Shown one piece after another: positions 1,741-42,096 of a DNA stretch of 64,000 nucleotides; the first letter of the stretch is position 1, and the number at the start of each line of letters is the position of its first letter. The translations under genes and the position numbers were made by a program. Under the pieces are notes generated by a model. The model worked only from the letters and a program-made list of their open reading frames with translations. It did no database searches and was not told where the DNA came from. This DNA comes from a virus: IMG/VR virus record IMGVR_UViG_3300002144_000620, positions 1 through 64,000 of that record. One strand, written 5' to 3'.

Positions 1741-1765
1741 AAAAGGGCTGATAAGGCCCTTTTTT
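1741..1765 (+). terminator. Bidirectional intrinsic terminator between convergent genes
   Basis: An 8-bp stem (aaaagggc/gccctttt) with a 7-nt loop is followed by a T run on the plus strand and by a T-rich stretch on the minus strand. It sits exactly between the fibre stop and the stop of the minus-strand gene at 1764. Confidence 0.85.
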
Positions 1766-2597: not shown

Positions 2598-2606
2598 TGG
2601 GTTTTT

Positions 2607-6431: not shown

Positions 6432-6461
6432 ATTATTACTATATTCTTTTACTTATGTAAA

Positions 6462-9209
6462 TTATCCCGCAAAAATTTGTGGATAATCATTGTCTTTGCT
6501 TTTATCCTTTTTATCAACAATTGAATAACCTGGTAGGTGTTTAGTATAAACTTTATCAGCCATTGCACCGTGTAATCCAGCAACCTTAGTCATCCAAAGA
6601 TCAAAAGCTTCCCATTTGCATGTCTCAAACTTACTAACAAAGTTAGGTAATTTTTCTCTATTAATCAAATAAGATTGGGCTGGTGCAAAAATACTTAGGT
6701 TTAAAAGTAAATCTTCTCTTTGACCACTATATCTTTCCGCACAGTAATTACCAAAACCAACCATATCAATATTCTCTTCTTTAGCTAATTTTGACCATCT
6801 AATTAAATTATCGTACAACTCATCATATGGGGAATCTATAATAACATCACCCTCAAACACCAAAATAAAATCAAATTCATTGTTGCTTTCCATGGTTATA
6901 CCATTTTTATGTGCTAAGAAGCACCCGTAATGACCTGGGGATAATTTAAAGTAACCTGGTTCCATCGCAACGTCTTTAGGTCTGTGGCACGTATCTAATG
7001 GGGGTAATTCCTTGTATATAACATTTACCTTTTCATAGTACTCGATATTATCGAAATCACTAGCAAAATCTTTTAATGATTTAGATGAAATTAACTCTTT
7101 AGGATTTGTATCTGGTTCCGTAACTAAATGAACTATTCTAATCTTAGGTTTTTTATTACCAGATATAATTTTAACCTCATCAATTTTATTATGTGTGAAT
7201 TTACCGTTATTAGGTAATATATTGATTAGATAGTTATTATCAACTATTATAGTTTTATTTTCTATCAATTTGTTGGAATGCATATCAAAACTAGTGTACT
7301 CGATTGAGTATTTACTGTTTTCAGATAGGTTGTATTCGACAAGTTGGTATGAACTACATTTACCAGAAACTGATACATCATAGTTTTTTATTAAATCACC
7401 ATCTTTATTTATTTTAATATTAACTATACGACTATCAACTGAATTGGATATTTGTAGATATACTACAAATGTGTTCGGTATGTTACTAGGTAATATAGTA
7501 AAATATTCTACCATAGAATAATCTTTGTGTGTTAAATTAGTATTAACATCGGCAATAAAATTATTTTCTGGCACTAATTCAATTTGATCTAACTTATCTT
7601 TAAAAGCAAAATACATTAAATTCTCGTAACCGTTGCTAAATGAACCCCATTTTAGTCTTAAATTTTCATAATCGTTAGCAGAATTAATTCTATCAACGGT
7701 GTCTAAATAAAATTCTGGACGAATTCCCATAAAGTATGTTACAACCGAGTGACCCTCGGCATTGTCTGGCATATCACCAAAATAAGCTGACTTACTGTTT
7801 AGTTTTTGTGATATATTATTTAAATATTCTGTATTAGGGTTTAATATATAATCATAATTTAAAAAATATACTTTGCTAATACCTAATTCTTTAGCTAAGG
7901 CAGCTCCATTATAATAATTAGTGTAACATGTTGGTCCGTGATATATGTCATTACCTTCACCTCTTAAATTAACAAAAGAATGGAAATCACCTTCACTATA
8001 CCTACTTTGAGAATAAAAAGTGTGTTTAGTTAAAATATTATTTTTATCATACACAAAATAATCAACCAATTCTTGTAATTCAGTTGATATTGGTAAGTGT
8101 GATGTTAATATAACTTTTCTACCAGTGGCTTTAGCTGACATAATACACTCTATGGTTGTATCGTAAGCACTCTTTGTTTTTGGATAGGTTGATATTATAA
8201 TAGCTTCATTACTAGGGTCAATAACCTCATTAATAGTTGTTGCAGGGGTTTTGTTTAGGGTTTCACTTATTAATTCACAATTTTTATCAAAATTAGTGAA
8301 GTCTAGGTAACCAATATTTTCAAATTTATCAAAATAATCTAAATAAACACCTAAGTTGTAGATTAATATTGGTAGGTTCCATGAAATAGCCTCACGAATA
8401 ACTAGTGGCATTGTTTCTTTATCGTTATTTGAACCTCTTGATGTAAATAAGAATAGGTCCATGGCTCCATAAAAACGTTCTACATCATTTCTTTCACCAT
8501 GCCATATAACATTTTTTGGTTTATTGATCATTAAAGGTTCCCAGTAATAAGCGAAATTACCCGATTGGTTACCAACAGTGTGGAAAACGTGATCTGGTAA
8601 ACTCCTAGCGTATTCAAAAAACTCAGCCTGATTTTTTCTAGGTGTAAATAAACCAACGTGTAGAATATGTTTTTTTGTTGGGTCTAAACCTAAGTCAATT
8701 AAAGATTTTTCTCTATTGGGTCTATTTTGGTATTCGATTGGGTATTCTACCAGTACTTTAGGTATTTCATTTATACTTTCAAATAATTTTATTTGCCAAT
8801 CAGATACAAACATAAATTTATCTGGAAAGAATTTTTTTTGTGTTGCATCGTATGATGAATCGTGTGATGTTTCGACAATTACGTAATTTCTATCGTCTTT
8901 GTAAAGATTTTTTGCGACATTAAAATCCATGAAATACTCTGGTATTTCTTCTAAGTGTACAATATCTGGTTTAACTCTATTAACAATATCAATGAGTTCC
9001 ATTTTATTCTCGTGTAGTGTGAAAAATCTATCAGGATCAACCATAGATGTTATCCTGTCACGCTGCACCACTAACACGCCTCCAGTATGATTTGACCATT
9101 CTATTACATAGATCTCAAACGTATCCTTAAGTAATTCTATTTTTTTCGTTAGATACTGCGGTAAACCACCTGTAGATAGGTGCGGTGCGATATATAATAA
9201 TTTCTTCAT
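6462..9209 (-). CDS. Three-module glycosyltransferase: GT4 - middle domain - GT25
   Basis: 915 residues. Residues 1 to about 340 form a GT4-like GT-B domain (LYIAPHLSTGGLPQYLTKKI, HVGLFTPRKNQ, then FTSRGSNNDKETMPLVIREAISWNLP with the donor-binding Glu residues). About 345-690 starts AIIISTYPKTKSAYDTTIEC and resembles a GT-A-like or accessory module I cannot name. The last ~220 residues look like GT25 (LPS galactosyltransferase / procollagen galactosyltransferase family): HYGCFLAHKNG, then VFEGDV at 784-789 in place of the usual EDD metal motif, and a late LPGYSIV. It is the first gene of the glycosylation operon, about 20 nt downstream of a Bacteroidota-type promoter. GT25 is known from collagen glycosylation, which is notable beside a collagen-like fibre. 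Confidence 0.82.
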   Translation of the reverse strand: MKKLLYIAPHLSTGGLPQYLTKKIELLKDTFEIYVIEWSNHTGGVLVVQRDRITSMVDPDRFFTLHENKMELIDIVNRVKPDIVHLEEIPEYFMDFNVAKNLYKDDRNYVIVETSHDSSYDATQKKFFPDKFMFVSDWQIKLFESINEIPKVLVEYPIEYQNRPNREKSLIDLGLDPTKKHILHVGLFTPRKNQAEFFEYARSLPDHVFHTVGNQSGNFAYYWEPLMINKPKNVIWHGERNDVERFYGAMDLFLFTSRGSNNDKETMPLVIREAISWNLPILIYNLGVYLDYFDKFENIGYLDFTNFDKNCELISETLNKTPATTINEVIDPSNEAIIISTYPKTKSAYDTTIECIMSAKATGRKVILTSHLPISTELQELVDYFVYDKNNILTKHTFYSQSRYSEGDFHSFVNLRGEGNDIYHGPTCYTNYYNGAALAKELGISKVYFLNYDYILNPNTEYLNNISQKLNSKSAYFGDMPDNAEGHSVVTYFMGIRPEFYLDTVDRINSANDYENLRLKWGSFSNGYENLMYFAFKDKLDQIELVPENNFIADVNTNLTHKDYSMVEYFTILPSNIPNTFVVYLQISNSVDSRIVNIKINKDGDLIKNYDVSVSGKCSSYQLVEYNLSENSKYSIEYTSFDMHSNKLIENKTIIVDNNYLINILPNNGKFTHNKIDEVKIISGNKKPKIRIVHLVTEPDTNPKELISSKSLKDFASDFDNIEYYEKVNVIYKELPPLDTCHRPKDVAMEPGYFKLSPGHYGCFLAHKNGITMESNNEFDFILVFEGDVIIDSPYDELYDNLIRWSKLAKEENIDMVGFGNYCAERYSGQREDLLLNLSIFAPAQSYLINREKLPNFVSKFETCKWEAFDLWMTKVAGLHGAMADKVYTKHLPGYSIVDKKDKSKDNDYPQIFAG

Positions 9210-9230
9210 AATGTAACTATATTGTTGTTA

Positions 9231-9265
9231 CAAATATAAACATATTATTATGGAATATAAACAAA
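9231..9265 (-). promoter_or_regulatory. Bacteroidota-type promoter (TTTG-N23-TATATTTG) for the glycosylation operon
   Basis: On the minus strand, TATATTTG (plus-strand caaatata, 9231-9238) matches the -7 consensus TAnnTTTG. TTTG (9262-9265) lies 23 nt upstream as a -33 element and is also the end of the capsid-gene terminator U tract. The box ends 21 nt before the ATG at 9209. The spacer is longer than the 20 nt seen at 42101 and 48212. Confidence 0.55.
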
Positions 9266-9293
9266 AAAGGGTGAGAAAATTTTCCCACCCTTT
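9262..9293 (-). terminator. Intrinsic terminator after the major capsid gene
   Basis: Arms 9266-9279 and 9280-9293 form a 14-bp stem on the minus-strand transcript, with one G-U wobble, followed by six U. It separates the head operon from the glycosylation operon. Confidence 0.85.
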
Positions 9294-9324
9294 AATTATT
9301 TGGTATAAAACCCTAGATAAAATA

Positions 9325-10902
9325 TTATCTGAAACCTCCGATACCGAAGCTAACGATATTTTTACACTTGATAACACCATAGAAACGGTTATTAACCATT
9401 TTCTTAGCGTAACGAGTCATAATACCTTTAACTGGTGCGAAAGTGAACGGGTTGTACATTGTTGGAGTTAATTGCATCGGCACGTATGGTGCGTAGATGT
9501 AACCAGTATCCAATAATGAAGTACCTTTGTGTCCCATTAAGATTGTGTCAGCTGGGAAGTAAGGATCACGGTATACTTGGTATCTTCCACCCAATGAACC
9601 GATTCTTTCGATACCCATGTTGAATTTATCTTGCTCTGGAGCTGCATTAGATACGTGGAAGTACTCTAAATCGTCCAAAATAGCTGAAACCTCAGCAGAT
9701 ACAACGATCCAGTTAGCACCACCTCTTAATGTAGCTTTGTGAATTTGTGCAGAAACTTGGTTAACCGCAGTGATTAACGTTTGGTTCCACTCTTTTTGAG
9801 TATAGAAACCATTTGATGCAGAAATACCACCAGTATTAACTCTAGATCCAGAGTAATCCCATGTCATTCTCCATGCAGCACCTCTACGTAAATCTCTTAA
9901 GATTTCACGATCGATTTCAGCAGCAACTTGCTCAGATAATAAAGCTGTTAATTCAGCTTCAGCATCGATGTTGTGGAATGCACTAACATCTTGAGCTAAT
10001 TCTGGAGACCATTGAGCTCTTAATTTTCTCTCGATAACAGAAACTGTTACAGATTTAAGTTCAAAAGAAACTTCACCCATTTCATCACTGTACTCTAAAG
10101 ATTCGTATTCTTTAGCAGTTGCAGTAATACCTGATAAAGGTAAAGCTACTGTAGTACTGTTGTTAACTATAGCAACATAAACGTCACCGTTAGCTTCCAT
10201 AACTGAATTACCATATTTTTGAGCTGGTAAATAGAAATCGAAATCAGCGCTAGCTGTAGCAGAAAGTACAGATAGTGTTGACATAATTTCTTCAGAATTT
10301 TCCCAGTTTGAGATACTTGAAACGAAATTCATTTTTACGATTGAAGTAGTTCCAACTGGTACAGAAGTACCAACTAAAGCAGCGTAACCATTACCATTAG
10401 CGTCAAATTCATAAAGATTTGCAACAGTAACTGTTGCAGTTAGAGATGTAGCAGCACCTTTAGAGTTGTCATAAAGACCATTTTCTCCGTAGAATGCGTC
10501 ATACAAGTTAGGGCTAACTGAAGTTCCTGTTGGATCGATACCAGCAGAACCAGCACCAAATGCTGAATTCTCCAATTTCGGGATAAAGTAGAACAATTTA
10601 CCAATTGGTAAGTTCAACGCTTGTACCGAAACGATTTCGTTAGCTAATAATTTTGAGAATACTCTTCTCACGATTGGGAATACCACAGTTTCGAAAGAAC
10701 CTTCGTTACCTAATGCAACTGATTCATTAAGCATGTAAGATGCTTGATTTTCAAATAATTGTGCGATATTCTCTTTTTTGTGACCACCTAGACCTTCTAA
10801 AAGTCCAAGTCCGTCCCATCTGTTAATTACGTCAGTACGTACCTCTTTTAAATGATTAAGGCCTACGTTACCAACTTTTCCTGATTCTAATAATGCTCCC
10901 AT
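9325..10902 (-). CDS. Major capsid protein, T4 gp23 family
   Basis: 525 residues, close to T4 gp23 (521). The N-terminus is a short pro-region, and VVFPIVRRVFSKLLANEIVSVQALNLPIGKLFYF (about 74-107) matches the gp23 core opening. LNE at residues 58-60 fits the L-x-E consensus cut by T4-type prohead proteases, giving a mature start at Ser61 (T4 cuts after residue 65). The C-terminus ends in the conserved PFTFAPVKGIMTRYAKKMVNNRFYG-type region. It is the last gene of the head block, after scaffold, protease, portal and terminase genes, and is followed by a strong terminator. Its start has an A-rich leader without a Shine-Dalgarno sequence. Confidence 0.95.
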   Translation of the reverse strand: MGALLESGKVGNVGLNHLKEVRTDVINRWDGLGLLEGLGGHKKENIAQLFENQASYMLNESVALGNEGSFETVVFPIVRRVFSKLLANEIVSVQALNLPIGKLFYFIPKLENSAFGAGSAGIDPTGTSVSPNLYDAFYGENGLYDNSKGAATSLTATVTVANLYEFDANGNGYAALVGTSVPVGTTSIVKMNFVSSISNWENSEEIMSTLSVLSATASADFDFYLPAQKYGNSVMEANGDVYVAIVNNSTTVALPLSGITATAKEYESLEYSDEMGEVSFELKSVTVSVIERKLRAQWSPELAQDVSAFHNIDAEAELTALLSEQVAAEIDREILRDLRRGAAWRMTWDYSGSRVNTGGISASNGFYTQKEWNQTLITAVNQVSAQIHKATLRGGANWIVVSAEVSAILDDLEYFHVSNAAPEQDKFNMGIERIGSLGGRYQVYRDPYFPADTILMGHKGTSLLDTGYIYAPYVPMQLTPTMYNPFTFAPVKGIMTRYAKKMVNNRFYGVIKCKNIVSFGIGGFR

Positions 10903-31561: not shown

Positions 31562-32192
31562 TTTTTTCTTTGTTTAATTTTTTTAGGAGCTTGAATAATT
31601 CCTTTGTATTAATTATAGTATAATCAGATTTAATGTCAATATTAAAATCATTTTCATACTTTATTGAAATTTTACCCTTTGGTTTTGACTTTAATAACTT
31701 AGGATTGTCAGTGACCATTACATCACAATAATCCCAAAAATCTCTCCATTTTTTAGGGAAAATAATTTGCTCTAAATTGTAATAATTTTTACTTAGGAAG
31801 AATAATGTTGCTGCTTTAGATCTTTGACTTTCATTGTTTAGTAAAACCACTTTAATTTTACTTTTATTAGAGAAATCTGAGATACTTTTAACTATACCGT
31901 ATTCTGATTCTGGCTCATCTGTTCTACCGAATATCTCAAATGATGCGTCTTCGTATAAAAACTTATCTAAAATAAATGACTTATCCTTCTTGTTTTCAGA
32001 GAATTCTATTTCCTTACCATCATCTTTAAATTCAGGTGAATCGGTTACACCCTCAATATCTGGAAAGGATTCTGATAAATTAAAGGGGTTTATCGGTCCC
32101 TCAATTTCTTTTTCAAACTCAAATTCATATAGATCTTTAAGTTTTGTTACGTGATCACGTAAAATATTATTTATTGTTACACCAACTACCAT
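31548..32192 (-). CDS. Degenerate HAD-like protein
   Basis: 214 residues. The opening VVGVTINNILRDH resembles the first motif of phage 5'-nucleotidase-like HAD proteins (IGVDIDGVLRD) but both catalytic Asp are replaced by Thr and Asn. Later VVLLNNESQRSKAATLFFLSK and DVMVTDNPKLLKSKPKGKISIKYE mirror HAD motifs II/III, again weak. It is therefore probably a non-catalytic relative. It sits between PhoH and a glycosyltransferase. An 11-bp inverted repeat encloses its start codon (32177-32229). Confidence 0.5.
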   Translation of the reverse strand: MVVGVTINNILRDHVTKLKDLYEFEFEKEIEGPINPFNLSESFPDIEGVTDSPEFKDDGKEIEFSENKKDKSFILDKFLYEDASFEIFGRTDEPESEYGIVKSISDFSNKSKIKVVLLNNESQRSKAATLFFLSKNYYNLEQIIFPKKWRDFWDYCDVMVTDNPKLLKSKPKGKISIKYENDFNIDIKSDYTIINTKELFKLLKKLNKEKNGKR

Positions 32193-32229
32193 GCTATTTT
32201 TTTATAAAAATAATAGTAAGTTGGTGTAA
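32177..32229 (-). promoter_or_regulatory. Inverted repeat enclosing a start codon
   Basis: ttacaccaact (32177-32187) and agttggtgtaa (32219-32229) are perfect 11-bp complements. On the minus-strand mRNA the ATG at 32190-32192 and its leader lie in the loop, right beside the 3' arm, which is inside the coding sequence. Confidence 0.65.
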
Positions 32230-32243
32230 AATAAAGTCTACAT

Positions 32244-32999
32244 TTAATTTTCTCTAAATATTTGTTCTATTTTTTTTATTAAAGGGTTTCTAACAACATC
32301 ATCTTCATTAAGTATGACAGTACCAACTTCATCAAAGTCACTAAATTTACCTATGATAAAGTTGAGGGAACTTTGGTCTTTTCTTTTCATGTCAATTTGG
32401 TTTTCGTCACCCAAGAATATCATCTTAGAGTTTTCACCTAATCTTGTCATTATTGTTCTTATGTTATCTATTGAGATATTTTGCGCCTCATCGATTATTA
32501 CGATAGAGTTATCTATGTTAATACCTCTCATGTATGCTATTGGCATTTCTTCGATCATACCAGCATTTCTTAACATCTCAACATTGTACTTACCAATAAC
32601 CTTTTCAAAATTATGCATGAATGAGTACATAAAAGGTTCCATTTTTTCTTTCATAGTTCCCTTTAAGAAACCTATTTCTTCATCCTTTAAAGTTGTAACC
32701 GATTTAACAATAATAATTTTTCGGTATCTACCATCATTTTTAATTAAATCTAAAGCTACAGCACATGATAGAAATGTTTTGCCAGTACCTGGTAAGCCAG
32801 AACATATAACCATTTCTTTATTTTTTATCTCTTTAACTAATTTTTTTTGGTTAATTGTTTTACATTTTATATCAACCCTTAATTTATCTAAGATATTACC
32901 ACCATGATGATTTGCTGACATCGATTCTAAGATGTCATGTTCCTCTTCAGGGGATAATTTTCTTTTTGATTTTCTATTAGATATTGGTCTACCACTCAT
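32244..32999 (-). CDS. PhoH-like ATPase
   Basis: 251 residues. Walker A GLPGTGKTF (about 69-77), then FLKGTMKEKMEPFMYSF typical of PhoH, Walker B SIVIIDEAQN (about 155-164) and FLGDENQID. PhoH family proteins are P-loop NTPases, some with RNA helicase/ribonuclease links, and are very common in large phages. The N-terminus is Arg/Lys/Ser-rich. It starts 6 nt after the HAD phosphatase gene. Confidence 0.93.
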   Translation of the reverse strand: MSGRPISNRKSKRKLSPEEEHDILESMSANHHGGNILDKLRVDIKCKTINQKKLVKEIKNKEMVICSGLPGTGKTFLSCAVALDLIKNDGRYRKIIIVKSVTTLKDEEIGFLKGTMKEKMEPFMYSFMHNFEKVIGKYNVEMLRNAGMIEEMPIAYMRGINIDNSIVIIDEAQNISIDNIRTIMTRLGENSKMIFLGDENQIDMKRKDQSSLNFIIGKFSDFDEVGTVILNEDDVVRNPLIKKIEQIFREN

Positions 33000-33005
33000 A
33001 AATTT

Positions 33006-33302
33006 TTAATTTTTAAAATAATTTTCACTGTTTATATTTTTATCATCAATGAATAAATCGTAAGGTGGTTTACCGAATTTTAGTTCGTGGTATTTAACCC
33101 CCCACTCTTTAAACTGTTTCTTAGTTAATTCAGAGTGGTCTATGCCAGTGACCGAACCTCTAGCTGTCCAATAAACAATTGTATTACCTTCATCGTATAA
33201 TTTATTTATTTTATCTATTCTGTCAGGTATAGGTTTTGATTTTGTGTAATCAGTACTATCTGTCTTAAATATTGTATTATCTATATCTACGTATATTAAC
33301 AT
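33006..33302 (-). CDS. Small HAD-superfamily phosphatase
   Basis: 98 residues: motif I VDIDNTIF with D6/D8, motif II in VYWTARGS, and the motif III/IV region KPPYDLFIDDKN. It is a minimal HAD without a cap domain, like the small phosphatases found in capsule and sugar-nucleotide gene clusters. It lies 3 nt downstream of the NeuB-like gene, so dephosphorylation of a nonulosonate phosphate is a reasonable guess, comparable to Neu5Ac-9-phosphatase or KdsC steps. That is inference; polynucleotide or nucleotide substrates are also possible. Confidence 0.75.
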   Translation of the reverse strand: MLIYVDIDNTIFKTDSTDYTKSKPIPDRIDKINKLYDEGNTIVYWTARGSVTGIDHSELTKKQFKEWGVKYHELKFGKPPYDLFIDDKNINSENYFKN

Positions 33303-33305
33303 ACA

Positions 33306-34151
33306 TTACTTTCTCAAACTTTTCATTTTCGATAACTCACCACCAAATAATTCTCTTGGTCCTTCTGGTATTAATAAAGATTCTTCAATATCTCGTATAC
33401 CTTTAACCAATTTAAATAAACCAGATGGTTCAATAGATGCTGAGTGATCTGACCCCCACATACCTCTGTCTAATGTTATATGACGCTCTACCCATGTCAC
33501 ACCCATCGGTATTGTAGCAAAAGTAGTTACTAAACCGTATTCGTGTCCACTATAACCTATTTCTTTTTCGGTGTAATGGTTTTTTAACCATGTTATATAA
33601 TTTAAGTTTAATTCACTTACTGGGCATGGGTATGTTGAGTTTGTGTGCATTATAACGTCAGGGTTACACGAGTCTATACATAAAGTTACTTCATCTTCAT
33701 TACTCATACCCGTTGAGACCATTAGGTAGTCAGCTTTATCTCTAGCGTATTTACATAGTTCGATATCGGTTATTAGTGCTGATGGTATCTTCATAGCGAT
33801 TCCTAGATCACTTTTATACCTCATCATAAAGTCTACTGACGTTTTGTCCCAAACGGATGCAAACCAATTAATACCAATCTCTTTGCAGAATCTGTCTATC
33901 TCATCATATTCAATCTCACCAAACTCAGTTTTCCATTTGTATTCTAAGTAAGTTATCTCACCCCACGGTGTTTGTCTCATCTTATTTTTTTGTTCTTCTG
34001 GTACACAGATATCTGGGTTTCTTTTTTGAAACTTAACGTAATTACAGCCAGCTGCTTTAGCCACTAATATTAATTGTTTGGCAATATTAATGTCACCGTT
34101 GTGATTAATACCTATTTCACCTATTATTTTAACACTATTTTTTTTATTCAT
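33306..34151 (-). CDS. neuB: NeuB-family nonulosonate (sialic acid) synthase, lacking the SAF domain
   Basis: 281 residues. EIGINHNGDINIAKQLI at about 11-27, VKFQKRNPD, the KIPSALITDIEL barrel strand, MVSTGMS, HTNSTYPCP, EIGYSGHEYG and VERHITLDR-GMWGSDHSAS are the ordered hallmarks of the NeuB TIM barrel, which condenses phosphoenolpyruvate with an acetylated mannosamine or related sugar. Usual enzymes are ~340 residues with a C-terminal SAF (antifreeze-like) domain; here the protein ends right after the barrel. The exact product (Neu5Ac, legionaminate, pseudaminate or other) cannot be read. It overlaps the FkbM gene by 8 nt. Confidence 0.9.
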   Translation of the reverse strand: MNKKNSVKIIGEIGINHNGDINIAKQLILVAKAAGCNYVKFQKRNPDICVPEEQKNKMRQTPWGEITYLEYKWKTEFGEIEYDEIDRFCKEIGINWFASVWDKTSVDFMMRYKSDLGIAMKIPSALITDIELCKYARDKADYLMVSTGMSNEDEVTLCIDSCNPDVIMHTNSTYPCPVSELNLNYITWLKNHYTEKEIGYSGHEYGLVTTFATIPMGVTWVERHITLDRGMWGSDHSASIEPSGLFKLVKGIRDIEESLLIPEGPRELFGGELSKMKSLRK

Positions 34152-34776
34152 TGTAATATTTTTTATTTAAAAGTATATAATCATTTTGTTTAACATTTAT
34201 TGATGATGATTTAAATATAGAGTAAAAACCTTTATTGTAAATATATTCTAAAACCTCTGGTTCTAATGTTTGTCCGTTAAAATATTCAACCTCTTCAGTT
34301 TCAATTTGTAAGACTTTAATGTTTTCCAATAAATTACCAAAGCTTTCTAGAGCCTCTAATGTGGCGCCTTCAACGTCTATTTTAACTAAGTCTGGTGTTG
34401 GTGAGTTATTTTTATTTATAAATGTATCCATTCTTTTGCATTCTAACTCAACCAATACTTCTTTAGTTTTAGATAAATTTTGTTCAAAAATACTATGTAT
34501 ACCATTTTTTTCTTTATGAAAAAAATTAGTTTTACCATCGTAATTACGTATAATCATGTTATGGAAATTAACTTTATCCGTATCTTTACCTAATAAGAAT
34601 TTTTCGTAATTATCAGGTAAACCTTCAAACCCAATAACTTTACAGTTGAATAGTTCCGATAATAGAAAACTGTCAAATCCGTTAAGGCAACCTATATCGT
34701 AAATTAATTTTATTTCAGAAGTGTTTATTTTTTTATCTAAAACACTTTTTATTGTTTGCATCTCTAATCTCGCCAT
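34144..34776 (-). CDS. FkbM-family SAM-dependent methyltransferase
   Basis: 210 residues from the ATG at 34776. IYDIGCLNGFDSFLLSELF is the SAM-binding motif I, VIGFEGLPDNYEKF the acidic loop, and MDTF...PDLVKIDVEGATLEALESF the defining FkbM segment. Family members O-methylate sugars. An ATG at 34839 would extend the protein but overlap the upstream GT gene by 76 nt, and an ATG at 34761 starts 2 nt after the upstream stop; 34776 fits the small overlaps seen elsewhere. It lies between the NeuB-like gene and a GT-B gene. Confidence 0.88.
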   Translation of the reverse strand: MARLEMQTIKSVLDKKINTSEIKLIYDIGCLNGFDSFLLSELFNCKVIGFEGLPDNYEKFLLGKDTDKVNFHNMIIRNYDGKTNFFHKEKNGIHSIFEQNLSKTKEVLVELECKRMDTFINKNNSPTPDLVKIDVEGATLEALESFGNLLENIKVLQIETEEVEYFNGQTLEPEVLEYIYNKGFYSIFKSSSINVKQNDYILLNKKYYNE

Positions 34777-35615
34777 TTTTCGTAAATTTTTATATATTCG
34801 TTTGCGATTATTTCTGGATCCCAATTTGCTTCCATCCATAATCTAGTTTTATACCCAATATCTAATATATCATCTAATCCAGATTCAATTAAATCTATTA
34901 ATTTATTCTCTAAATCATAATAATAGACATTTATAAACGGGTTATTTTTAGCACCTGAAGATCTTAGTAATACCTCCTCCACGCTATTGTCGGTTGAGCA
35001 TATTGTTGCAATACCCATAGCCATTGATTCTAAGCCAGATCTATGGTATGATGATGTTTTAACTTCATCTATGAATATGTTACACATCGACTTTCTATCT
35101 AGACACACTTCTAGTGGTACACCAGTTATTATATCTAACTCAACTTTACCCTTATATAGTTCTTTTATTCTATTTAAGATTGGTATGGTCTCTGAATAAC
35201 CTTTATCAGCCCATTCGGATGTTGGTTCTATCGTTGATGGAGAGTAACCTATACGTATAACTTTATCTTGGTATTTAGGTAAAAAATCTATGTCGTATAA
35301 ATCAACTGGGTTTCTAACTATTCTACAATTATGGTACTCTTTTAGTGTTGCGTGATACTGCGCTATAACCAATTTCGGTAAACTAACATTTAAGTCAACT
35401 CTAAAGGGTTCACTATGATATTGTATGATACTTTTTTTATTGGTTCTAAAGACTTTATTATGTTGATGTATGATGTCTGAATCAGGTCTTATTAATTTAT
35501 TAGGATACGAATATCCTATTACAAATGATTGATGATCAGTATATTTATTAATTACACCACTAATAGCCTCAGGAGCTTTAGCTATGCTAGTATTTTTAGT
35601 GTGTGTTATCACCAT
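34764..35615 (-). CDS. GT-B-type glycosyltransferase
   Basis: 283 residues. N-terminal THTKNTSIAKAPEAISGVINKYT resembles a GT4 acceptor-side loop. The C-terminal half contains IRIGYSPSTIEPTSEW, ELDIITGVPLEVCLDRKS, and DEVKTSSYHRSGLESMAMGIATICS with the donor-binding Glu, then a final helix. Short for GT4, with a trimmed N-terminal domain. Overlaps the GT29-like gene by 20 nt. Confidence 0.75.
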   Translation of the reverse strand: MVITHTKNTSIAKAPEAISGVINKYTDHQSFVIGYSYPNKLIRPDSDIIHQHNKVFRTNKKSIIQYHSEPFRVDLNVSLPKLVIAQYHATLKEYHNCRIVRNPVDLYDIDFLPKYQDKVIRIGYSPSTIEPTSEWADKGYSETIPILNRIKELYKGKVELDIITGVPLEVCLDRKSMCNIFIDEVKTSSYHRSGLESMAMGIATICSTDNSVEEVLLRSSGAKNNPFINVYYYDLENKLIDLIESGLDDILDIGYKTRLWMEANWDPEIIANEYIKIYEKWRD

Positions 35616-36591
35616 AGTAAGTTATGATATTGTCTTTTTTATTGTATTCGTATGCGTTACCTATTATAAAATCCTTTTCATTATCATAGTTATGTACTTT
35701 AGATATAACATATTTTAAACCCTCTTCAGTTCTTAATATACTTTTTTCACCGTCTTTATAGAAATTAAAACCGATTAAGTTGATTTCTTTATAACCACCT
35801 AATTTTTTTAATAATTTTAACATAACTAAACCGCTAGTGGATGGGTTTGAGTCATTAGTTACCCCTAACAAATCATTATGGTGGTTGTATTTTAATATAA
35901 TACTTTGTTTAAACTTATCTAATTTCAACACAATATCTCGCCAATTTTGCATTTTATTCGATATTATAAATCTTATTGGTACAAATTTATCTAAATTAAC
36001 TACTTGTAAGTATACACTCGTATGTATTGTCGTTTTGTTACCAGTAAAAACCTTATCGATTTTATAGGAATTAAATCTAATAACTATATCGTGATCATCT
36101 ATAAATTTACCTTTTTTTAATTTTAATAGATCGGATGAATTAGCCACTAATACGATTCGCTTACCTTTAATAAATCTTTTAAAATTAATTAGTGATAAAA
36201 ACGATATTTTTTTTTTATTATTACCTAAAAATAAATTAACTTTATTATCATAATTAATGATTTCACTATTATCATTATTAATGATTTCACTATTATCATT
36301 ATTAAGGATAATATTATCCGTATTTATTTGGTGTAATTTGTTTTCGTCTATAGGGGCACAGATACCCTTTTTAATAATTATTGGTCGTGTATCTGATTTC
36401 AGATTTTTACCATCTTTAAACGTAACACGAATCGTTGTACTTGGCTGGATAGGTCCAACCATTTCTATAACTGGTTCTATAACTGGTTCTATAACTGGTT
36501 CAGGTGCCCTTACAACTGGCGCCATAACTTTATTTACGAGTTTCTTTGATTTATTATTTAGAAACTTATCTTTTCTTGTGAAGTAACTCAT
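35596..36591 (-). CDS. GT29 sialyltransferase-like protein with a repetitive N-terminal extension
   Basis: 331 residues. The first ~130 are low-complexity (EPVI repeats, NNDNSEII repeats). From about 144 the GT29 sialylmotifs appear in order: motif L (KRIVLVANSSDLLK...IDDHDIVIRFN, 144-174), motif S (NPSTSGLVMLKLL...INLIGFNFY, 249-278) and motif VS (H300-x4-E305). GT29 enzymes transfer sialic acid from CMP-sialic acid; they are typical of eukaryotes and rarer in bacteria and viruses. It overlaps the CMP-sugar synthetase gene by 26 nt, which supplies the donor type. Cytosolic: no signal peptide or membrane anchor. Confidence 0.8.
   Translation of the reverse strand: MSYFTRKDKFLNNKSKKLVNKVMAPVVRAPEPVIEPVIEPVIEMVGPIQPSTTIRVTFKDGKNLKSDTRPIIIKKGICAPIDENKLHQINTDNIILNNDNSEIINNDNSEIINYDNKVNLFLGNNKKKISFLSLINFKRFIKGKRIVLVANSSDLLKLKKGKFIDDHDIVIRFNSYKIDKVFTGNKTTIHTSVYLQVVNLDKFVPIRFIISNKMQNWRDIVLKLDKFKQSIILKYNHHNDLLGVTNDSNPSTSGLVMLKLLKKLGGYKEINLIGFNFYKDGEKSILRTEEGLKYVISKVHNYDNEKDFIIGNAYEYNKKDNIITYYGDNTH
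36254..36301 (-). repeat. 24-bp x2 in-frame tandem repeat
   Basis: Two perfect 24-bp units (36254-36277 and 36278-36301) encode the NNDNSEII repeat of the GT29-like protein. Confidence 0.85.
36463..36498 (-). repeat. 12-bp x3 in-frame tandem repeat
   Basis: Three perfect units of ttctataactgg (plus strand) encode the EPVI repeat near the N-terminus of the GT29-like protein. Confidence 0.85.
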
Positions 36592-37213
36592 TTAACTCTT
36601 TTTCCGTATCAATATCAATAACATCACTTATCCCAAAAAAATAAGTTTCGTTATTATATAAATTATTATTTAGTTTATTAATCTCATTTATATTAAATAT
36701 ACTGATGTAGTGTGATATTTCAAAAATATTTGGATAATCTTGTCTACGATACATATCATGTTTAATTAGTTGGGTACCTTTATTTTCACCAGTATCCAAC
36801 ATGTATAAATACGGGTGTGTACCTTTTATATCTTTTTTACATAATAAACTTTTAATATTTTTATTAGTAAAAATATTATACACCTCTTTGATCTGATTAA
36901 ACGTTCTTTCTGGATAAGTTAAGTATAACATTATTACCACATCGTCTTCATTTAAATCACCGTTTTTTACGAGGTATTCAACAACTTCTTTTGTACTAGT
37001 TGTATCAATAGATAGCTCGTCTGGTCTAATAGATACCCTTAAACCAATTGATTCACATTTTTCGATTAAGTATTCATCGTCTGTTGATACAATTATTTGT
37101 TTATGGTATTCTTTTGGTATAACATCAATAGTTTTATTAAAAAGTAATCTATTTTTAAATGGTAATCCTTTTGAGTTCCTTCTGGCTGGTATTAGTATTT
37201 TTACGTTATTCAT
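36566..37213 (-). CDS. neuA: CMP-N-acetylneuraminate synthetase-like cytidylyltransferase
   Basis: 215 residues. KILIPARRNSKGLPFKNRLLF at 5-25 is the NeuA/KdsB nucleotide-binding loop. IIVSTDDEYLIEKCESIGLRVSIRPDELSID follows, and the end has the VIDIDTEKEL motif that carries the metal-binding Asp residues. It activates a nonulosonate with CTP. Overlaps with the two GT29-like genes (26 and 8 nt) place it between them, making a donor-synthesis plus transfer cassette with the NeuB-like gene 2.4 kb downstream. Confidence 0.88.
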   Translation of the reverse strand: MNNVKILIPARRNSKGLPFKNRLLFNKTIDVIPKEYHKQIIVSTDDEYLIEKCESIGLRVSIRPDELSIDTTSTKEVVEYLVKNGDLNEDDVVIMLYLTYPERTFNQIKEVYNIFTNKNIKSLLCKKDIKGTHPYLYMLDTGENKGTQLIKHDMYRRQDYPNIFEISHYISIFNINEINKLNNNLYNNETYFFGISDVIDIDTEKELNELLHKKR

Positions 37214-37745
37214 CTATTAAAACTTTAACCTTACCGTTATTAATTAAACCATCTACTAACTTTTTTTCAATTTCTGGGTTATGACCAGACATTTTACAAT
37301 CATCTTTATAATAATGAACACCTCCAGTAAAAAAGTCGAAACCATGTATTTTGACCATATAACCTTTTGATATAAAGTAATATATCATTAGTATGCCAGT
37401 TGTAGCCCATAACCCATTAGTATTTATTATTTTATTAATTTGGTTATAAAAAATAAGTGGTACTATGGTGTGCCCACTTTTTTCAAGGATGTTTAAAGTT
37501 TCGGTGTTGTGTGGTAATAAACCTGGGTATACATAAATTTTTTCATCAAAATTAGTATCTAAATGTTTTTTAGAAAATTTTGTTCTAACCCATATGTTTG
37601 TTTTTGTACCAACAAAATCCTCATAACCGTTTAACTCAAAATCATTGAATCTAACAACGGTCTCATGTGAATCAATTAAGTCACGACATTTATTTTTCAA
37701 ACACGATGGTCCGTTACCTATTAATAATATCTCTTTAACACTCAT
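37206..37745 (-). CDS. Compact GT29 sialyltransferase-like protein
   Basis: 179 residues, nearly only the catalytic core. Motif L is ILLIGNGPSCLKN...IDSHETVVRFNDF (6-36), followed by FVGTKTNIWVRT (44-55); motif S is LWATTGILMIYYFISKG...KIHGFDFF (112-139); motif VS is H155-x4-E160 in SGHNPEIEKK. All three sialylmotifs are present in order. It shares the architecture of the neighbouring 331-residue protein but not its N-terminal repeats, so the two are likely distinct transferases. It overlaps the two-domain GT gene by 4 nt. Confidence 0.82.
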   Translation of the reverse strand: MSVKEILLIGNGPSCLKNKCRDLIDSHETVVRFNDFELNGYEDFVGTKTNIWVRTKFSKKHLDTNFDEKIYVYPGLLPHNTETLNILEKSGHTIVPLIFYNQINKIINTNGLWATTGILMIYYFISKGYMVKIHGFDFFTGGVHYYKDDCKMSGHNPEIEKKLVDGLINNGKVKVLIDE

Positions 37746-39187
37746 AATACTTTTATAGCCTTTTCTAAATCTGAATTAAAATTTTCTATATGTTTATCTT
37801 TAGTAAAATCATACTGGTAACCTAAGGCTCTTTCTCTGTTAAAACTACTTAATCTATTATGGTAATTTTTCATTTTATTTAAAAAATATTCTAAACCAAT
37901 TTTTTTATAGTGTAATAGCTTTATTGGTTCTTTGAAATAAATAACATTACCCACTGGACTAGCCACATGACAACCAAAATTAAAATTAATTTCACTAATA
38001 TCGTTAGGTTTAAACATACATAATTTATTAAAATGATCATGTTTATAACCGTATTTAACGTCATTAACTATGTTTTCAGTCGTTGTAACGTCAAAACTTT
38101 CGATTATCATGTCATAACCCTCTGGTTTCACTATAGTGGCCTCACTGTTGTTAAAATTGGTTATGTATTCGTTTATGTTTTCTGTATAGAGAAATTCATC
38201 CATATCACAGACAATAACAATATCTGATTTACCTCTAGAATTTTTCCATAAACTATTTTTTATTTGTAAGTAAGCATCGTCACGTATTTCACCACCAGTA
38301 TCGTAACTAATAATAGTTACTTTAGGGTGTTTGTTTAATATCTTAACACTATTGTCGTCAGATTTATTATCATAAACTATAATTTTATTAACCCAGTTCT
38401 CGTAATGTTTTAAAAATGATGGAATTATTTTCTCTTCGTTCCAACATAAAACATGTAGGTCTACTTTAGGTAATGATTTATCAAAAATTATTTGTGATAC
38501 ATCTTCGTTTAATGTTAGTGGTAGTTTTTCTGAATATTTTTTCTCAAAAATTTCTTTATTACTAACCCATTCATCGTTGGTACCCCCAATTGATTTATGT
38601 ATTAACTTTATATTTGATATTAAACCTAACTTAGCACCGTTTATGTGGTTTTCAAAACAGAATGATATGTCGTAAAAATGGAACCCCTTAAAAGATTCAT
38701 CAAATTTATTTTTTATCTTATTTCTATCCACAGCCAGAAATAGACCATCAAGTACAATCATTTCTTTTAATTGATTACCATAATTGGTTGAGTATTTATT
38801 TTCCCAGGTCTTATTACCATCAGTGTGTTTTACCGTACCGTGCATAGCGTTACGTATTTCCCACCACATACCATTAATCATATGGTTGGTACCAGCTACA
38901 CCTAGTATAGAATATTCTGGGTTTTTACTAAACTGTTTTATTAGTTTATCACCCCAATTTTTGGTTTCGAATATTATATCGTCATGACAAAAAACAATTA
39001 TATCACTAGAAGCTTCTTTTAAACCTTTATTGTATATTTCTGTTAGAGAGTATTCTCCGTTATTTACATAAGGTAATATTTCAACACCTTTATGTAGACA
39101 CGTTTTTTCTAGATGATCTATAAAGGATTGGTCGATTAACCTTGTTGAATAAACTATACTTATTTTAACGTTTATCATTTTCTTCAT
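37742..39187 (-). CDS. Two-domain GT-A glycosyltransferase
   Basis: 481 residues. Domain 1 (about 5-225) is GT2-like: ISIVYSTRLIDQSFIDHL, then DIIVFCHDDIIF with the acidic metal motif (D69/D70) and LIHKSIGGTNDEW. Domain 2 (about 241-481) starts VDLHVLCWNEEKIIPSFLKHY, has VYDNKSDDNSV and VCDMDEFLY (D328/D330), characteristic of the GT92/Glyco_tranf_2_4 group, and LHYKKIGLEYFLNKM. It probably adds two sugars in sequence. It is the gene just upstream (in transcription) of the sialylation cassette. Confidence 0.85.
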   Translation of the reverse strand: MKKMINVKISIVYSTRLIDQSFIDHLEKTCLHKGVEILPYVNNGEYSLTEIYNKGLKEASSDIIVFCHDDIIFETKNWGDKLIKQFSKNPEYSILGVAGTNHMINGMWWEIRNAMHGTVKHTDGNKTWENKYSTNYGNQLKEMIVLDGLFLAVDRNKIKNKFDESFKGFHFYDISFCFENHINGAKLGLISNIKLIHKSIGGTNDEWVSNKEIFEKKYSEKLPLTLNEDVSQIIFDKSLPKVDLHVLCWNEEKIIPSFLKHYENWVNKIIVYDNKSDDNSVKILNKHPKVTIISYDTGGEIRDDAYLQIKNSLWKNSRGKSDIVIVCDMDEFLYTENINEYITNFNNSEATIVKPEGYDMIIESFDVTTTENIVNDVKYGYKHDHFNKLCMFKPNDISEINFNFGCHVASPVGNVIYFKEPIKLLHYKKIGLEYFLNKMKNYHNRLSSFNRERALGYQYDFTKDKHIENFNSDLEKAIKVL

Positions 39188-39512
39188 CTTCTTCTATTAA
39201 GTCATAATCGGTATTATCTTCCTTAAATTTAAGAACTGGTATGATACCATTAACTTTTTGTATAAATGTAAATTGTAAAGCAACTTCATTTAACTCTCTT
39301 TCCAGAAAAGTAGCTAACTTATATTCTTCCGAATTCATCGGATAAACAAAAGCGTACAAAACTTTATCACCAACCTGTATTCTTTTACCAGACCATACTG
39401 TTTTATATTCAACACGCTCAAGTACATCTGGTGTAATCGTCTTGTAAGCTTTTATCTGATCTTTAAATTCGTTGTACATATCATTTAATACCTGTGGATC
39501 CAAACCCGCCAT
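39165..39512 (-). CDS. Unknown protein between dUTPase and GT genes
   Basis: About 115 residues from the ATG at 39512 (MAGLDPQVLNDMY). A longer start at 39539 would overlap the dUTPase gene by 59 nt, and an ATG at 39479 would avoid overlap. The product has a beta-rich middle (WSGKRIQVGDKVLYAFVYPM) and an acidic tail. No family is recognised. Overlaps the GT gene by 23 nt. Confidence 0.6.
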   Translation of the reverse strand: MAGLDPQVLNDMYNEFKDQIKAYKTITPDVLERVEYKTVWSGKRIQVGDKVLYAFVYPMNSEEYKLATFLERELNEVALQFTFIQKVNGIIPVLKFKEDNTDYDLIEEDEENDKR

Positions 39513-40065
39513 CACCTCTTTCTGAGGTTGATAACACATCTTTCTTTATAAATTTTGTTTTACCTATAGTTTGTACAGCAGAAATAACACCTTGTGCAAT
39601 TCTATCACCGTTATTAATAAAAAACCCTGAAGTCTGGTCCGTATTGTATAGAATAATACCTATCTCACCCCTATAACCAGAATCAACAGTTCCAGGGCTA
39701 TTTAGTACCATGATACCGTTTTTTAAAGCTAAACCACTTCTAGATCTAACTTGTAATTCATAACTAGAAGGGATTTCGAAATATAAACCAGTGGGTATTA
39801 AAGCTCTTTGACCAGGTTTAATCGTAATCGGTTCGTTAATAAATGCTCTAATATCAAAACCGCTATCACCATCTTTTTCATAAGATGGGTCTGGGTTATT
39901 AGATTTATTAACAAAAGAAACTTTCAATTTAACATTCATTGTTTCTGGGTCGTAATCCCAGTCACCCATTAAGTTGGTTGTTTGACCCAATAAGTCGTCT
40001 AAATCTCTTTTCATCCCGTCATTAAGGAATTCACTCATATCCATATTTTCTAAAAAATTGTTCAT
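39481..40065 (-). CDS. dut: Trimeric dUTPase with N-terminal extension
   Basis: 194 residues. All five dUTPase motifs are present: DGDSGFDIRAF (65-75), RSRSGLALKNG (107-117), NSPGTVDSGYRGEIGIILYN (122-141, catalytic Asp128), GDRIAQGVI (153-161) and the C-terminal RGDGGFGSTG (183-192). The ~48-residue N-terminal extension is acidic and absent from most dUTPases. It hydrolyses dUTP to dUMP and PPi, protecting phage DNA from uracil. It lies 1 nt after a GT-B gene, inside a glycosylation-rich operon. Confidence 0.95.
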   Translation of the reverse strand: MNNFLENMDMSEFLNDGMKRDLDDLLGQTTNLMGDWDYDPETMNVKLKVSFVNKSNNPDPSYEKDGDSGFDIRAFINEPITIKPGQRALIPTGLYFEIPSSYELQVRSRSGLALKNGIMVLNSPGTVDSGYRGEIGIILYNTDQTSGFFINNGDRIAQGVISAVQTIGKTKFIKKDVLSTSERGDGGFGSTGIK

Positions 40066-40066
40066 A

Positions 40067-41290
40067 TCAAATTAATGTTTTGTATATTTCAGCTCTAACT
40101 TTTGTTACGTTATTAATATCGTAACGATCTTTAACAGTTTCATATAATTTTTCACCTAAATCAATAACTAAATTAGGGTTATCGATTAAACGCTTTGCCT
40201 GTTGACTCCATTGTTTATGGTTTTTAGTTGTTTCTACTAGTAATGAGTTACCATCACTATTTGATGTGCCACCCTTGTTAATAGCCGATATAAGATCAAT
40301 AGTATAAGGTCCGTAATTTTGTGCAATGATAGCCTTTTTATGGAAACCAGCCTCAATAACTTTTAACTGAGATTTATATTTGTTGAATGGGCTATCATTT
40401 AGCGGTATTAGTGCTATATCGAATTCGTTATAACCTTTAGCGTAGTTATCAATATTTTTAGTCCAAATTCTTCTATAAGGCATATCTTTATCATTATAGT
40501 TTATTTCTGGATCAAATTTTAATAAGTGTTTTAGGTACTCTGACTCACCTTCTAATAATCTAAAATTATTTGTGATAAAAACCTCGTACATAAACCAGGT
40601 GGTCTCAAGTGGTTGCATTTGTCTCTCCATCCACTGATTGGTTTCTTTGTTAAAAGTCCTAACCGTACCTCTAGTATCAAAACCACACAAAACAAACTGA
40701 ATATCATTTTTGTTACCACTTGTTGTTTGTGGTATACCTTTAAGTAATTCAATATCTTTTATATGAGATGAACCGCCAAGCCACCCGAATCTAAGTCTAT
40801 CTGATTCAGTTGGATTTGGTTTAAATTGTTGTTCATTTGGGTTTATTGCGTTTGGTAAAACAATGCAATTCTTATTATGTTTTAAAACTTCTTTTTGTAA
40901 TATATCAGTAGTTACAGTAACTAGGTCAGATTTTTTAACTAGGTTAACTATAGTACCAGCATAATTATTTTGTTTAGCTTGGTGGTATAAACCGTGTGAT
41001 GGGTCTAAGTTCCAATGATCATCTAAATCTAGTATAATTTTACCACCAAATGATTTTATTTTTTTAAAAATTTCTTCACTCTGAGCATAATTAGCCCCAG
41101 GGACTCTATGAAAGAAGAATAAATGGAATTTTTTTAAATAGTTATCATCATTAAAGTCTATATTTTGGTTTATCTCAACAAAAAAATCTTCATTGTGATT
41201 ATTTTGAAGCGTTACGTGTGGGTCTATACATCTGTATTTGCCAGATCCAGCACGATCGTTTGGGTTTACTAGGATATTTATCTTACTCAT
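40067..41290 (-). CDS. GT4-like glycosyltransferase
   Basis: 407 residues. KINILVNPNDRAGSGKYRCIDPHVTLQ is a GT-B N-terminal loop; KIILDLDDHWNLD and SDLVTVTTDILQKEV are typical of GT4 proteins annotated in large phages. RFGWLGGSSHIKDIELLKGI and DIALIPLNDSPFNKYKSQLKVIEAG form the donor site with the C-terminal Glu. It is preceded by a 59-nt gap after the heptose-kinase-like gene. Confidence 0.85.
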   Translation of the reverse strand: MSKINILVNPNDRAGSGKYRCIDPHVTLQNNHNEDFFVEINQNIDFNDDNYLKKFHLFFFHRVPGANYAQSEEIFKKIKSFGGKIILDLDDHWNLDPSHGLYHQAKQNNYAGTIVNLVKKSDLVTVTTDILQKEVLKHNKNCIVLPNAINPNEQQFKPNPTESDRLRFGWLGGSSHIKDIELLKGIPQTTSGNKNDIQFVLCGFDTRGTVRTFNKETNQWMERQMQPLETTWFMYEVFITNNFRLLEGESEYLKHLLKFDPEINYNDKDMPYRRIWTKNIDNYAKGYNEFDIALIPLNDSPFNKYKSQLKVIEAGFHKKAIIAQNYGPYTIDLISAINKGGTSNSDGNSLLVETTKNHKQWSQQAKRLIDNPNLVIDLGEKLYETVKDRYDINNVTKVRAEIYKTLI

Positions 41291-41349
41291 TAGTTACTAT
41301 TTGTATAATAATAACGAATTTAAATTAAAAATCAAAGGTTATTGTTAAT

Positions 41350-42096
41350 TTATTTGGGTGTTACAACTCCTCGTCTACTTACAACATCAGCTGATTTTTT
41401 GTTAGCGTCCATTATGGATAAACCTATATTGCCAGTAATGTAATAAGCTGATATAAATGCCGCTGTAAATGTATCCCCAGCACCACTGACATCAATTGTC
41501 TCTTGTGGATTTGGTGATGGATAATGGTTATTTTTATAACTAGCACCATTTTGACCTAGAGTTACGATGATGCCTTCATGATTTAAACTATCGTTATTCA
41601 TGAACTCATTTTCGTTTAGTTTAATAAAACTAAAATCTTTAATAATTTCATCCGTTAATTTTCTTTTACTATCTAATATAGATAACTTTGAATTACTAGA
41701 TATTTTTTTTAAATCAATGTCCGATAAAAAACCTTTGTTGTAATCACTTACAATAACAATATCCGAATCATTTATTACTTTATTGATATTATTATCATAT
41801 TTAAAAGGGGTTATAGATCTTTCACCATCATCAACACGTAAAAACATGTGATTAGATTTAGATTCAACATATCTAGTTTTTGTTATATTTTCTATCTGAG
41901 TAATTGTAGATACGTTTGATTCGTGTAGTATTACTCTGATATTAGCCTCTGTATTACCAGCCATACCGTTATTTTCGATTATTTTAATAGGGTTCAGAAC
42001 TGGAACTGGTGCTTCTGGTGATAATCTGTTTACATCGCAATAGATAAATCTATCTATACAAGTTTCACCAATAACTAAGACGTTAACGTTATTCAT
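41350..42096 (-). CDS. HldE/RfaE domain I-like heptose kinase (PfkB family)
   Basis: 248 residues. VLVIGETCIDRFIYCDVNRLSPEAPVPVLNP holds the RLSPEAPVPV signature of RfaE/HldE domain I (residues 24-33). IDVSGAGDTFTAAFISA (201-217) is the PfkB ATP/anion-hole motif with catalytic Asp208. HldE-type kinases phosphorylate D-glycero-D-manno-heptose 7-phosphate at C1 on the way to ADP-heptose. The protein is shorter than usual (~310-330 residues for domain I) and the nucleotidylyltransferase domain is absent, so the host would have to complete the pathway. It starts 4 nt after a Bacteroidota -7 box and is the first gene of the long operon. Confidence 0.82.
   Translation of the reverse strand: MNNVNVLVIGETCIDRFIYCDVNRLSPEAPVPVLNPIKIIENNGMAGNTEANIRVILHESNVSTITQIENITKTRYVESKSNHMFLRVDDGERSITPFKYDNNINKVINDSDIVIVSDYNKGFLSDIDLKKISSNSKLSILDSKRKLTDEIIKDFSFIKLNENEFMNNDSLNHEGIIVTLGQNGASYKNNHYPSPNPQETIDVSGAGDTFTAAFISAYYITGNIGLSIMDANKKSADVVSRRGVVTPK

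Follow-up and report, generated by a model that had tools for sequence, protein, structure and literature searches.

Why would a bacteriophage encode a glycosyltransferase of family GT29, and what would it do with it? The question is raised by one gene, GT29b, on the minus strand of a stretch of DNA (the window) that comprises the first 64,000 bases of the 153,961-base virus record IMGVR_UViG_3300002144_000620. The window encodes a T4-type portal, a terminase, a head protein, a protease and a tail sheath, and therefore belongs to a contractile-tailed phage; the nearest named relative of the terminase is that of a Flavobacterium phage at 31% identity, a match that does not fix the host. At the start of the record (1–1731, plus strand) lies a protein of tail-fibre type, open at that end, which combines collagen triple-helix repeats (PF01391, nine stretches) with a Peptidase_S74 chaperone domain at its C-terminus and might serve as a glycan acceptor. 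A second glycan cluster (1764–9209, minus strand) lies between the tail fibre and the head genes and contains a Nol-like carbamoyltransferase, a GT9-like protein and GT4-type transferases, one of them of 915 aa.

The open reading frame of GT29b (35596–36591) is intact, starts with ATG and encodes 331 aa. A sequence-only reading had seen the GT29 sialylmotifs L, S and VS in this protein, and our alignment of 35 proteins from the window and its relatives (A6) found them in order and at the places proposed, with the motif L region at residues 144–188 (36028–36162; the Pfam stretch covers 145–192), the motif S region at residues 249–278 (35758–35847) and motif VS at H300-x4-E305 (35677–35694), which reads H300-NYDN-E305. 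N174, G254, G274 and H300 are present in all 35 rows, and H-x4-E is kept in 30 of them, the rows without it being L036, L024, L040, L035 and L074; by analogy, H300 is the likely catalytic base. The Pfam model PF00777 matched GT29b with E = 6.7e-7 and 29.4 bits, above the curated cut-off of 23. In the reverse direction, the phage-led A6 profile retrieved from the PDB ST3Gal1 (4e-30), ST6Gal1 (5e-22), ST8SiaIII (4e-21) and ST6GalNAc2 (2.5e-20). Motif III, an H[YF]-type element between motifs S and VS, is common in GT29 but is not the catalytic base, and it is doubtful that it strictly defines the family. Both sequence and alignment lack a histidine in residues 279–299 of GT29b, and thus the motif-III histidine is absent; because the profile, the fold and the remaining three motifs fit, we nevertheless assigned the protein to GT29.

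The fold agrees with this assignment. In an AlphaFold2 model built from 35 sequences, the catalytic part (residues ∼107–331) folds, with block means mostly between 70 and 97 from residue 111, and all 27 Foldseek matches to the PDB at E ≤ 0.001 were GT29 enzymes, of which ST6Gal1 was the best (7.6e-8), so that no other fold was preferred. VIA-align superposed the model on ST6Gal1 (Z 16.1, rmsd 3.1, 206 aligned residues), ST3Gal1 (Z 13.8, rmsd 3.4, 192), ST6GalNAc2 (Z 13.1, rmsd 3.2, 178) and ST8SiaIII (Z 12.3, rmsd 3.8, 194). The related folds of GT42 CstI (Z 10.6, rmsd 3.8, 179), MptE-type (Z 10.3, rmsd 3.9, 158) and Maf transferases (Z 7.6, rmsd 4.2, 163) fell below GT29 by profile and by fold. 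GT42 did not match better than GT29: the best GT42 match of the profile was 5.1e-11 versus 4e-30 for ST3Gal1, and fold similarity was Z 10.6 versus 16.1. Among the fold matches listed, no row was recognized as GT80, and 9c08, a Pasteurella sialyltransferase whose family was not assigned, gave Z 9.4. GT29b nevertheless differs from the known sialyltransferases, to which it is 14–19% identical in the structure alignments; besides lacking the motif-III histidine, it is phage-coded beside donor-synthesis genes, and its sequence showed no evident membrane anchor on inspection.

These donor-synthesis genes and a second GT29 gene had no place in the sequence-only reading. From position 39187 the minus strand carries a double GT2-type glycosyltransferase (37742–39187, 481 aa, PF13712 and PF13704), GT29a (37206–37745, 179 aa), a NeuA-type CMP-sugar synthetase (36566–37213, 215 aa), GT29b, a putative glycosyltransferase that accompanies GT29b (34764–35615, 283 aa), an FkbM-type methyltransferase (34144–34839, 231 aa; PF05050 53 bits, TIGR01444 62 bits), a NeuB-type nonulosonate synthase (33306–34151, 281 aa), a small HAD-type phosphatase-like protein (33006–33302, 98 aa; EcbF-BcbF 31.3 bits, below cut-off; phrog_1238) and PhoH, in this order. 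The six genes from GT29a to NeuB overlap end to end, with NeuA overlapping both GT29 genes. GT29a is only 179 aa long, and it outscores GT29b on PF00777 (44.5 versus 29.4 bits); in the alignment it shows motifs L and S, a motif-III-like HYYK, which GT29b lacks, and motif VS (H155-x4-E160). The 283-aa protein had no Pfam match, and a distant relative in L037 gave a weak Glyco_transf_4 match (E = 0.017). The same neighbourhood holds a 407-aa glycosyltransferase on the minus strand (40067–41290; phrog_7162, 148.8 bits) and, also on this strand, a 248-aa PfkB/heptose-7-phosphate-kinase-like protein of uncertain cassette membership (41350–42096; PF00294; rfaE_dom_I 98 bits, below cut-off). No PHROGs v4 family matched GT29a, GT29b, NeuA or NeuB at E ≤ 0.01.

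Which sugar these genes would provide is less sharply defined than their families. Bacterial clusters for nonulosonate surface glycans carry NeuB, NeuA and a transferase side by side. The NeuA-type protein matched PF02348 with 32.7 bits (cut-off 22.6), and its best PDB match was the CMP-Neu5Ac synthetase 1eyr (E = 7.7e-16). The NeuB-type protein matched PF03102 with 194 bits (cut-off 22.1) and, in the PDB, best 6ncs, a solved NeuB chain of 290 aa (E = 1.7e-23). A typical NeuB carries a C-terminal SAF domain, which the phage protein lacks: PF08666 found none in G000 or G001 and matched in 8 of 14 controls. Because NeuB is without SAF, and NeuA and NeuB score below the NCBIfam equivalog cut-offs, the identity of the sugar is not fixed. 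We give nearly even weight to the reading that the GT29 proteins use a different CMP-activated acid sugar as donor (pseudaminic acid, legionaminic acid, Kdn or Kdo) and are therefore not strict sialyltransferases. It is favoured by the best NCBIfam model of NeuA, PseF (52.1 bits, below its cut-off of 205.7), followed by KdsB-type models, by the scores of NeuB on both NeuB_NnaB (181.6 bits, cut-off 399.65) and PseI (132.4 bits, also below cut-off), and by a plant GT29 member that acts with CMP-Kdo; the lean of NeuB to NnaB and the best PDB matches of NeuA, which are CMP-Neu5Ac synthetases (1eyr and 6ifd), speak against it. The UDP-GlcNAc 2-epimerase (NeuC) model PF02350 matched none of three records (G000–G002), which may be fragments, and 11 of 14 controls, and the NAD-type epimerase model PF01370 found nothing in the window's record. 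Hence the precursor would have to derive from the host or from an unrecognized or missing gene, and a hexosamine precursor is probably supplied by the host. The phage arrangement departs from the bacterial clusters in its lineage, its SAF-less NeuB, the lack of any hexosamine epimerase found, and a transferase swapped behind a leader, as described below.

To see how widely this block is kept, we compared viral records. Two close relatives from IMG/VR (L003 and L004), found via GT29b, have GT29b proteins of 48–50% identity; L003 reproduces the gene content and gene order of the block in the window, and the coordinates of GT29a, NeuA, GT29b and NeuB in L004 are identical to those in L003. Comparisons of dN and dS were made between the window and L005, which is the same record as L003; the GT29b reference (L005:5547–6542) begins four codons (residues KKIL) before the likely ATG, which leaves the catalytic domain unaffected. 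The catalytic part of GT29b (dN 0.29, dS 2.07), GT29a (dN 0.32, dS 2.43) and NeuB (dN 0.034, dS 1.31) are under purifying selection, values that are rough because dS is near saturation. Among 50,697 phage records, no direct relative was found by megablast of 32000–42000 or by tblastn of GT29b, GT29a found two weak records and NeuB found three. As a single-protein query GT29a found no viral contig, and an alignment query did find some.

Scanning viral contigs for NeuB yielded 38 loci, with NeuA in 35, the small HAD gene in 32 and GT29, by our own profile, in 18; the Pfam GT29 model matched 16 of 39 records. A GT29 scan gave 28 loci, half of which (14) had NeuA and/or NeuB within ∼6 kb and 10 of which had both; both locus sets include near-duplicates, and five of the 14 donor-linked loci (L089–L091, L093 and L094) are of the window's own lineage. 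Another 13 GT29 loci were without NeuA, NeuB and the HAD gene in the stretch analysed, and one was without an ORF match. Thus GT29 does not always accompany donor genes. Independent layouts occur in L033 (GT29-NeuA-NeuB, with a GT29 scoring 111 bits), in L088, a 223-kb contig with a T4-type portal (NeuA-GT29-GT29-NeuB, a third GT29 and the HAD gene), and in the 484-kb uncultured phage LR756508, with one GT29 before NeuB and three after. The four GT29 genes around the one NeuB of the latter (L065, LR756508.1 316839–333339, at 5186–10007) have classical motifs by eye, and the one run against Pfam scored 93.8 bits. NeuB itself varies in form in the contigs scanned: L024:6580–7326 holds a second, divergent NeuB-like ORF of 248 aa beside NeuA and NeuB, which resembles the NeuB of the window weakly (E 7e-4), the NeuB-type proteins encoded by L083:7341–8804 and L087:6609–8111 are 487 and 500 aa long, the former carrying a C-terminal cupin domain (Pfam), and L028:3103–3924 has NeuB in two ORFs, perhaps by frameshift or assembly error.

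These data bear on the possibility that the cassette consists of passengers that the phage took up from a host not long ago and does not use. Phages carry many auxiliary genes, and an island captured from a host could comprise two GT29 genes with a donor pathway. We consider this very unlikely, because synteny is complete in L003 and L004, at a GT29b identity of 48–50% and with low dN/dS, NeuA and NeuB persist across a wider phage group, and the contigs that bear the cassette genes also encode phage hallmarks (of 28 records tested, 11 gave a T4-type portal, one of these matches being weak).

Ahead of its catalytic part, GT29b has a mostly disordered, repetitive leader (residues 1–130, 36202–36591). 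The EPVI and NNDNSEII repeats described there earlier are real at the DNA level, as a 12-bp unit in 3.2 copies at 36463–36501 and a 24-bp unit in 2.8 copies at 36243–36309. The accompanying suggestion that the leader may tether the enzyme to the virion found no support. The AlphaFold2 model places residues 1–23 and 36–105 below pLDDT 50, and the leader evolves faster (dN 0.85, dS 1.35) than the catalytic part (dN 0.29, dS 2.07) between the window and L005, again as rough values with dS near saturation. Among the ORFs compared, a leader profile matched genes of the same locus only (best other E = 0.45). Moreover, the leader, which begins M[GS]xF, is shared in relatives with a different glycosyltransferase of the same locus: the leaders of L013 and L011, of the GT29b type, and of L069 are homologous to that of L014, of the GT8 type (z 22–24, 0 of 1000 shuffles). 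The window's own leader gave a weak signal against the GT8 proteins (z 0.7 to 4.9), and therefore the common leader is established for the relatives and suggested for the window. Because its start is common to two enzyme types, the leader is a part shared by enzymes and is not evidence of a virion anchor.

The leader marks a locus at which transferases are replaced. In the window's lineage a conserved frame consists of dUTPase, u124, GT2, X, NeuA, Y, NeuB, HAD and PhoH. Position X is GT29a in the window, L005 and L008–L010, and in sister phages (L007, L011 and L013–L016) it is a protein of 220 aa, which in the two cases tested resembled the MptE-like family PF01973 below its cut-off of 34.6 bits (L007 32.6, L015 22.8); the MptE-like family has a fold related to GT29, as noted above. 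Position Y is leader-GT29b in the window, L005, L011 and L013, leader-GT8-C-domain in L007–L010 and L014, and unrelated transferase genes, a GT2 (Pfam) and a GT25-like one (named from its sequence by eye), in L015 and L016. The DNA of L013 and L014 is continuous through NeuA to ∼155 bases into gene Y and resumes only at NeuB, a pattern suggestive of a block exchanged between conserved flanks. Judged from profiles, the C-domain of the GT8 protein is likely akin to GT29, as profile–profile comparison gave 85–88% probability over 82–84 columns, located around motifs S and VS only. A profile of the L014-type C-terminal part matched no sialyltransferase in the PDB, and the structure prediction for the L014 protein, from five sequences, was unusable (mean pLDDT 35). 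A fusion of GT8 and GT29 at the Pfam level exists in another virus, L096.

The reading we favour, with a probability of roughly two in three, is that the phage carries a glycan-decoration cassette, comprising a self-made CMP-nonulosonate, two GT29 capping enzymes and an exchangeable transferase. The NeuB-type synthase would condense a host-supplied hexosamine-type precursor into a nine-carbon acidic sugar, sialic acid or a near relative, the NeuA-type enzyme would activate this sugar to its CMP form, and GT29a and GT29b would transfer it to the termini of glycans assembled by neighbouring transferases, of GT2 type and others. The donor-making genes are fixed in the lineage, and the transferase between NeuA and NeuB is replaced as a block behind the shared leader; the cassette could thus vary the surface glycan while the donor stays constant. 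Fixed donor genes with replaced transferases fit diversifying surface glycans. The analysis establishes the protein families, the fold and motif residues, the synteny and the gene replacement, and from these we infer activity, donor and acceptor; a surface glycan on the virion is a real possibility as acceptor, at slightly under even odds, and one on the infected cell is put forward tentatively.

Alternatively, the cassette could act on the LPS or capsule of the host as infection proceeds, with the virion itself unglycosylated; preventing superinfection, and masking or re-exposing a receptor, are examples of what this might achieve. FkbM, HldE-like kinase and GT2 families are common in bacterial surface-polysaccharide clusters, and PhoH adjoins the cassette here, as LPS gene clusters near phoH have been reported in cyanophages (PMC3037559). 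No flippase, ligase or polymerase was noticed in the general gene annotation, and we regard this alternative as possible but rather doubtful. That the glycosyltransferases hypermodify phage DNA against restriction is highly improbable. We know of no GT29 enzyme that acts on DNA, and the thymidylate-synthase-type base hydroxymethylase PF00303, which matched in 9 of 14 controls, is absent from G000; Tet_JBP was not found either, in a search without positive control that is hence uninformative. DNA-modifying glycosyltransferases are nevertheless cited for phages (PMC12619734).

Parts of the glycan-decoration cassette have precedents. GT29 is on record in animal viruses, in bacteria and in one phage protein in databases, and phage glycosylation cassettes are a known kind. 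The best viral structure match to GT29b was UniProt A0A6J5NLG3 (E = 1.2e-16, 24% identity), a 492-aa protein of an uncultured Caudovirales phage; since it is annotated as GT29, phage GT29 is already named in databases, and the proteins of L101 and L107 (485 and 470 aa), located downstream of NeuA, may be of this kind, judging by length. Virus-coded GT29 enzymes are also known from myxoma virus, chelonid herpesvirus 5 (F-sial) and squirrelpox (PMC3462797; BFVD rows). F-sial was described as closest to vertebrate enzymes (PMC3462797), whereas the phage GT29 genes are distant from every eukaryotic one and lie beside NeuA and NeuB. An alpha-2,3/2,8-sialyltransferase is named for phage TayeBlu (PMC12772287); in the huge-phage paper PMC7162821 and in PMC5628999 none of the sialic-acid words searched for occurred, and searches of open-licence full-text papers turned up none describing phage GT29 with a NeuA/NeuB cassette.

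How this viral pool relates to the eukaryotic enzymes was examined in a GT29 tree of 60 rows and 215 columns, which has long branches and only two animal sequences, omits the truncated duplicate L063 and uses no rows spanning ≤150 profile positions. GT29a and GT29b formed separate supported clades, and the two animal sialyltransferases were placed among phage sequences (98/92), beside L088_5935 and L065_7917. AU p values are weakened because the groups were named after inspection of the tree; with this in mind, a single clade of all viral GT29 was rejected (p 0.0006), and one of eukaryotic plus six titled bacterial rows was not (p 0.159), so that nesting of the animal sequences among phage rows is not established and the tree does not settle the origin. 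A recent duplication giving GT29a and GT29b was set aside in view of their separate clades, a single clade of the two being not rejected at p 0.062. The earlier description of GT29 as mostly eukaryotic needs qualifying, given the many viral matches, PF00777 matches in one bacterial phylum (9 of 398 genomes), and bacterial GT29 that is already published (PMC5811610). That work placed the origin of eukaryotic sialyltransferases in bacteria with phages unconsidered, the words 'phage' and 'virus' occurring zero times in its main text (PMC5811610). As the wider phage GT29 pool appears nearer to animal sialyltransferases than the sampled bacterial GT29 does, phages could have been a route or reservoir for the eukaryotic family. 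The fullest version of our reading, in which phage sialylation is replaceable, with an own CMP-nonulosonate and a capping transferase block-swapped behind a shared leader to give 'serotypes' of a sialylated coat, and in which phages were also that route or reservoir, is a long shot in our judgement.

The viral GT29 pool bears on the origin of eukaryotic sialyltransferases. Animal cells and pathogens classically disguise themselves with coats of sialic acid, and, if the glycan-decoration reading is true, the same logic would apply to virions or to infected bacteria; that reading would also account for the occurrence in viral contigs of a family usually regarded as eukaryotic. The leader with its replaceable body offers a concrete locus for watching glycan variation.
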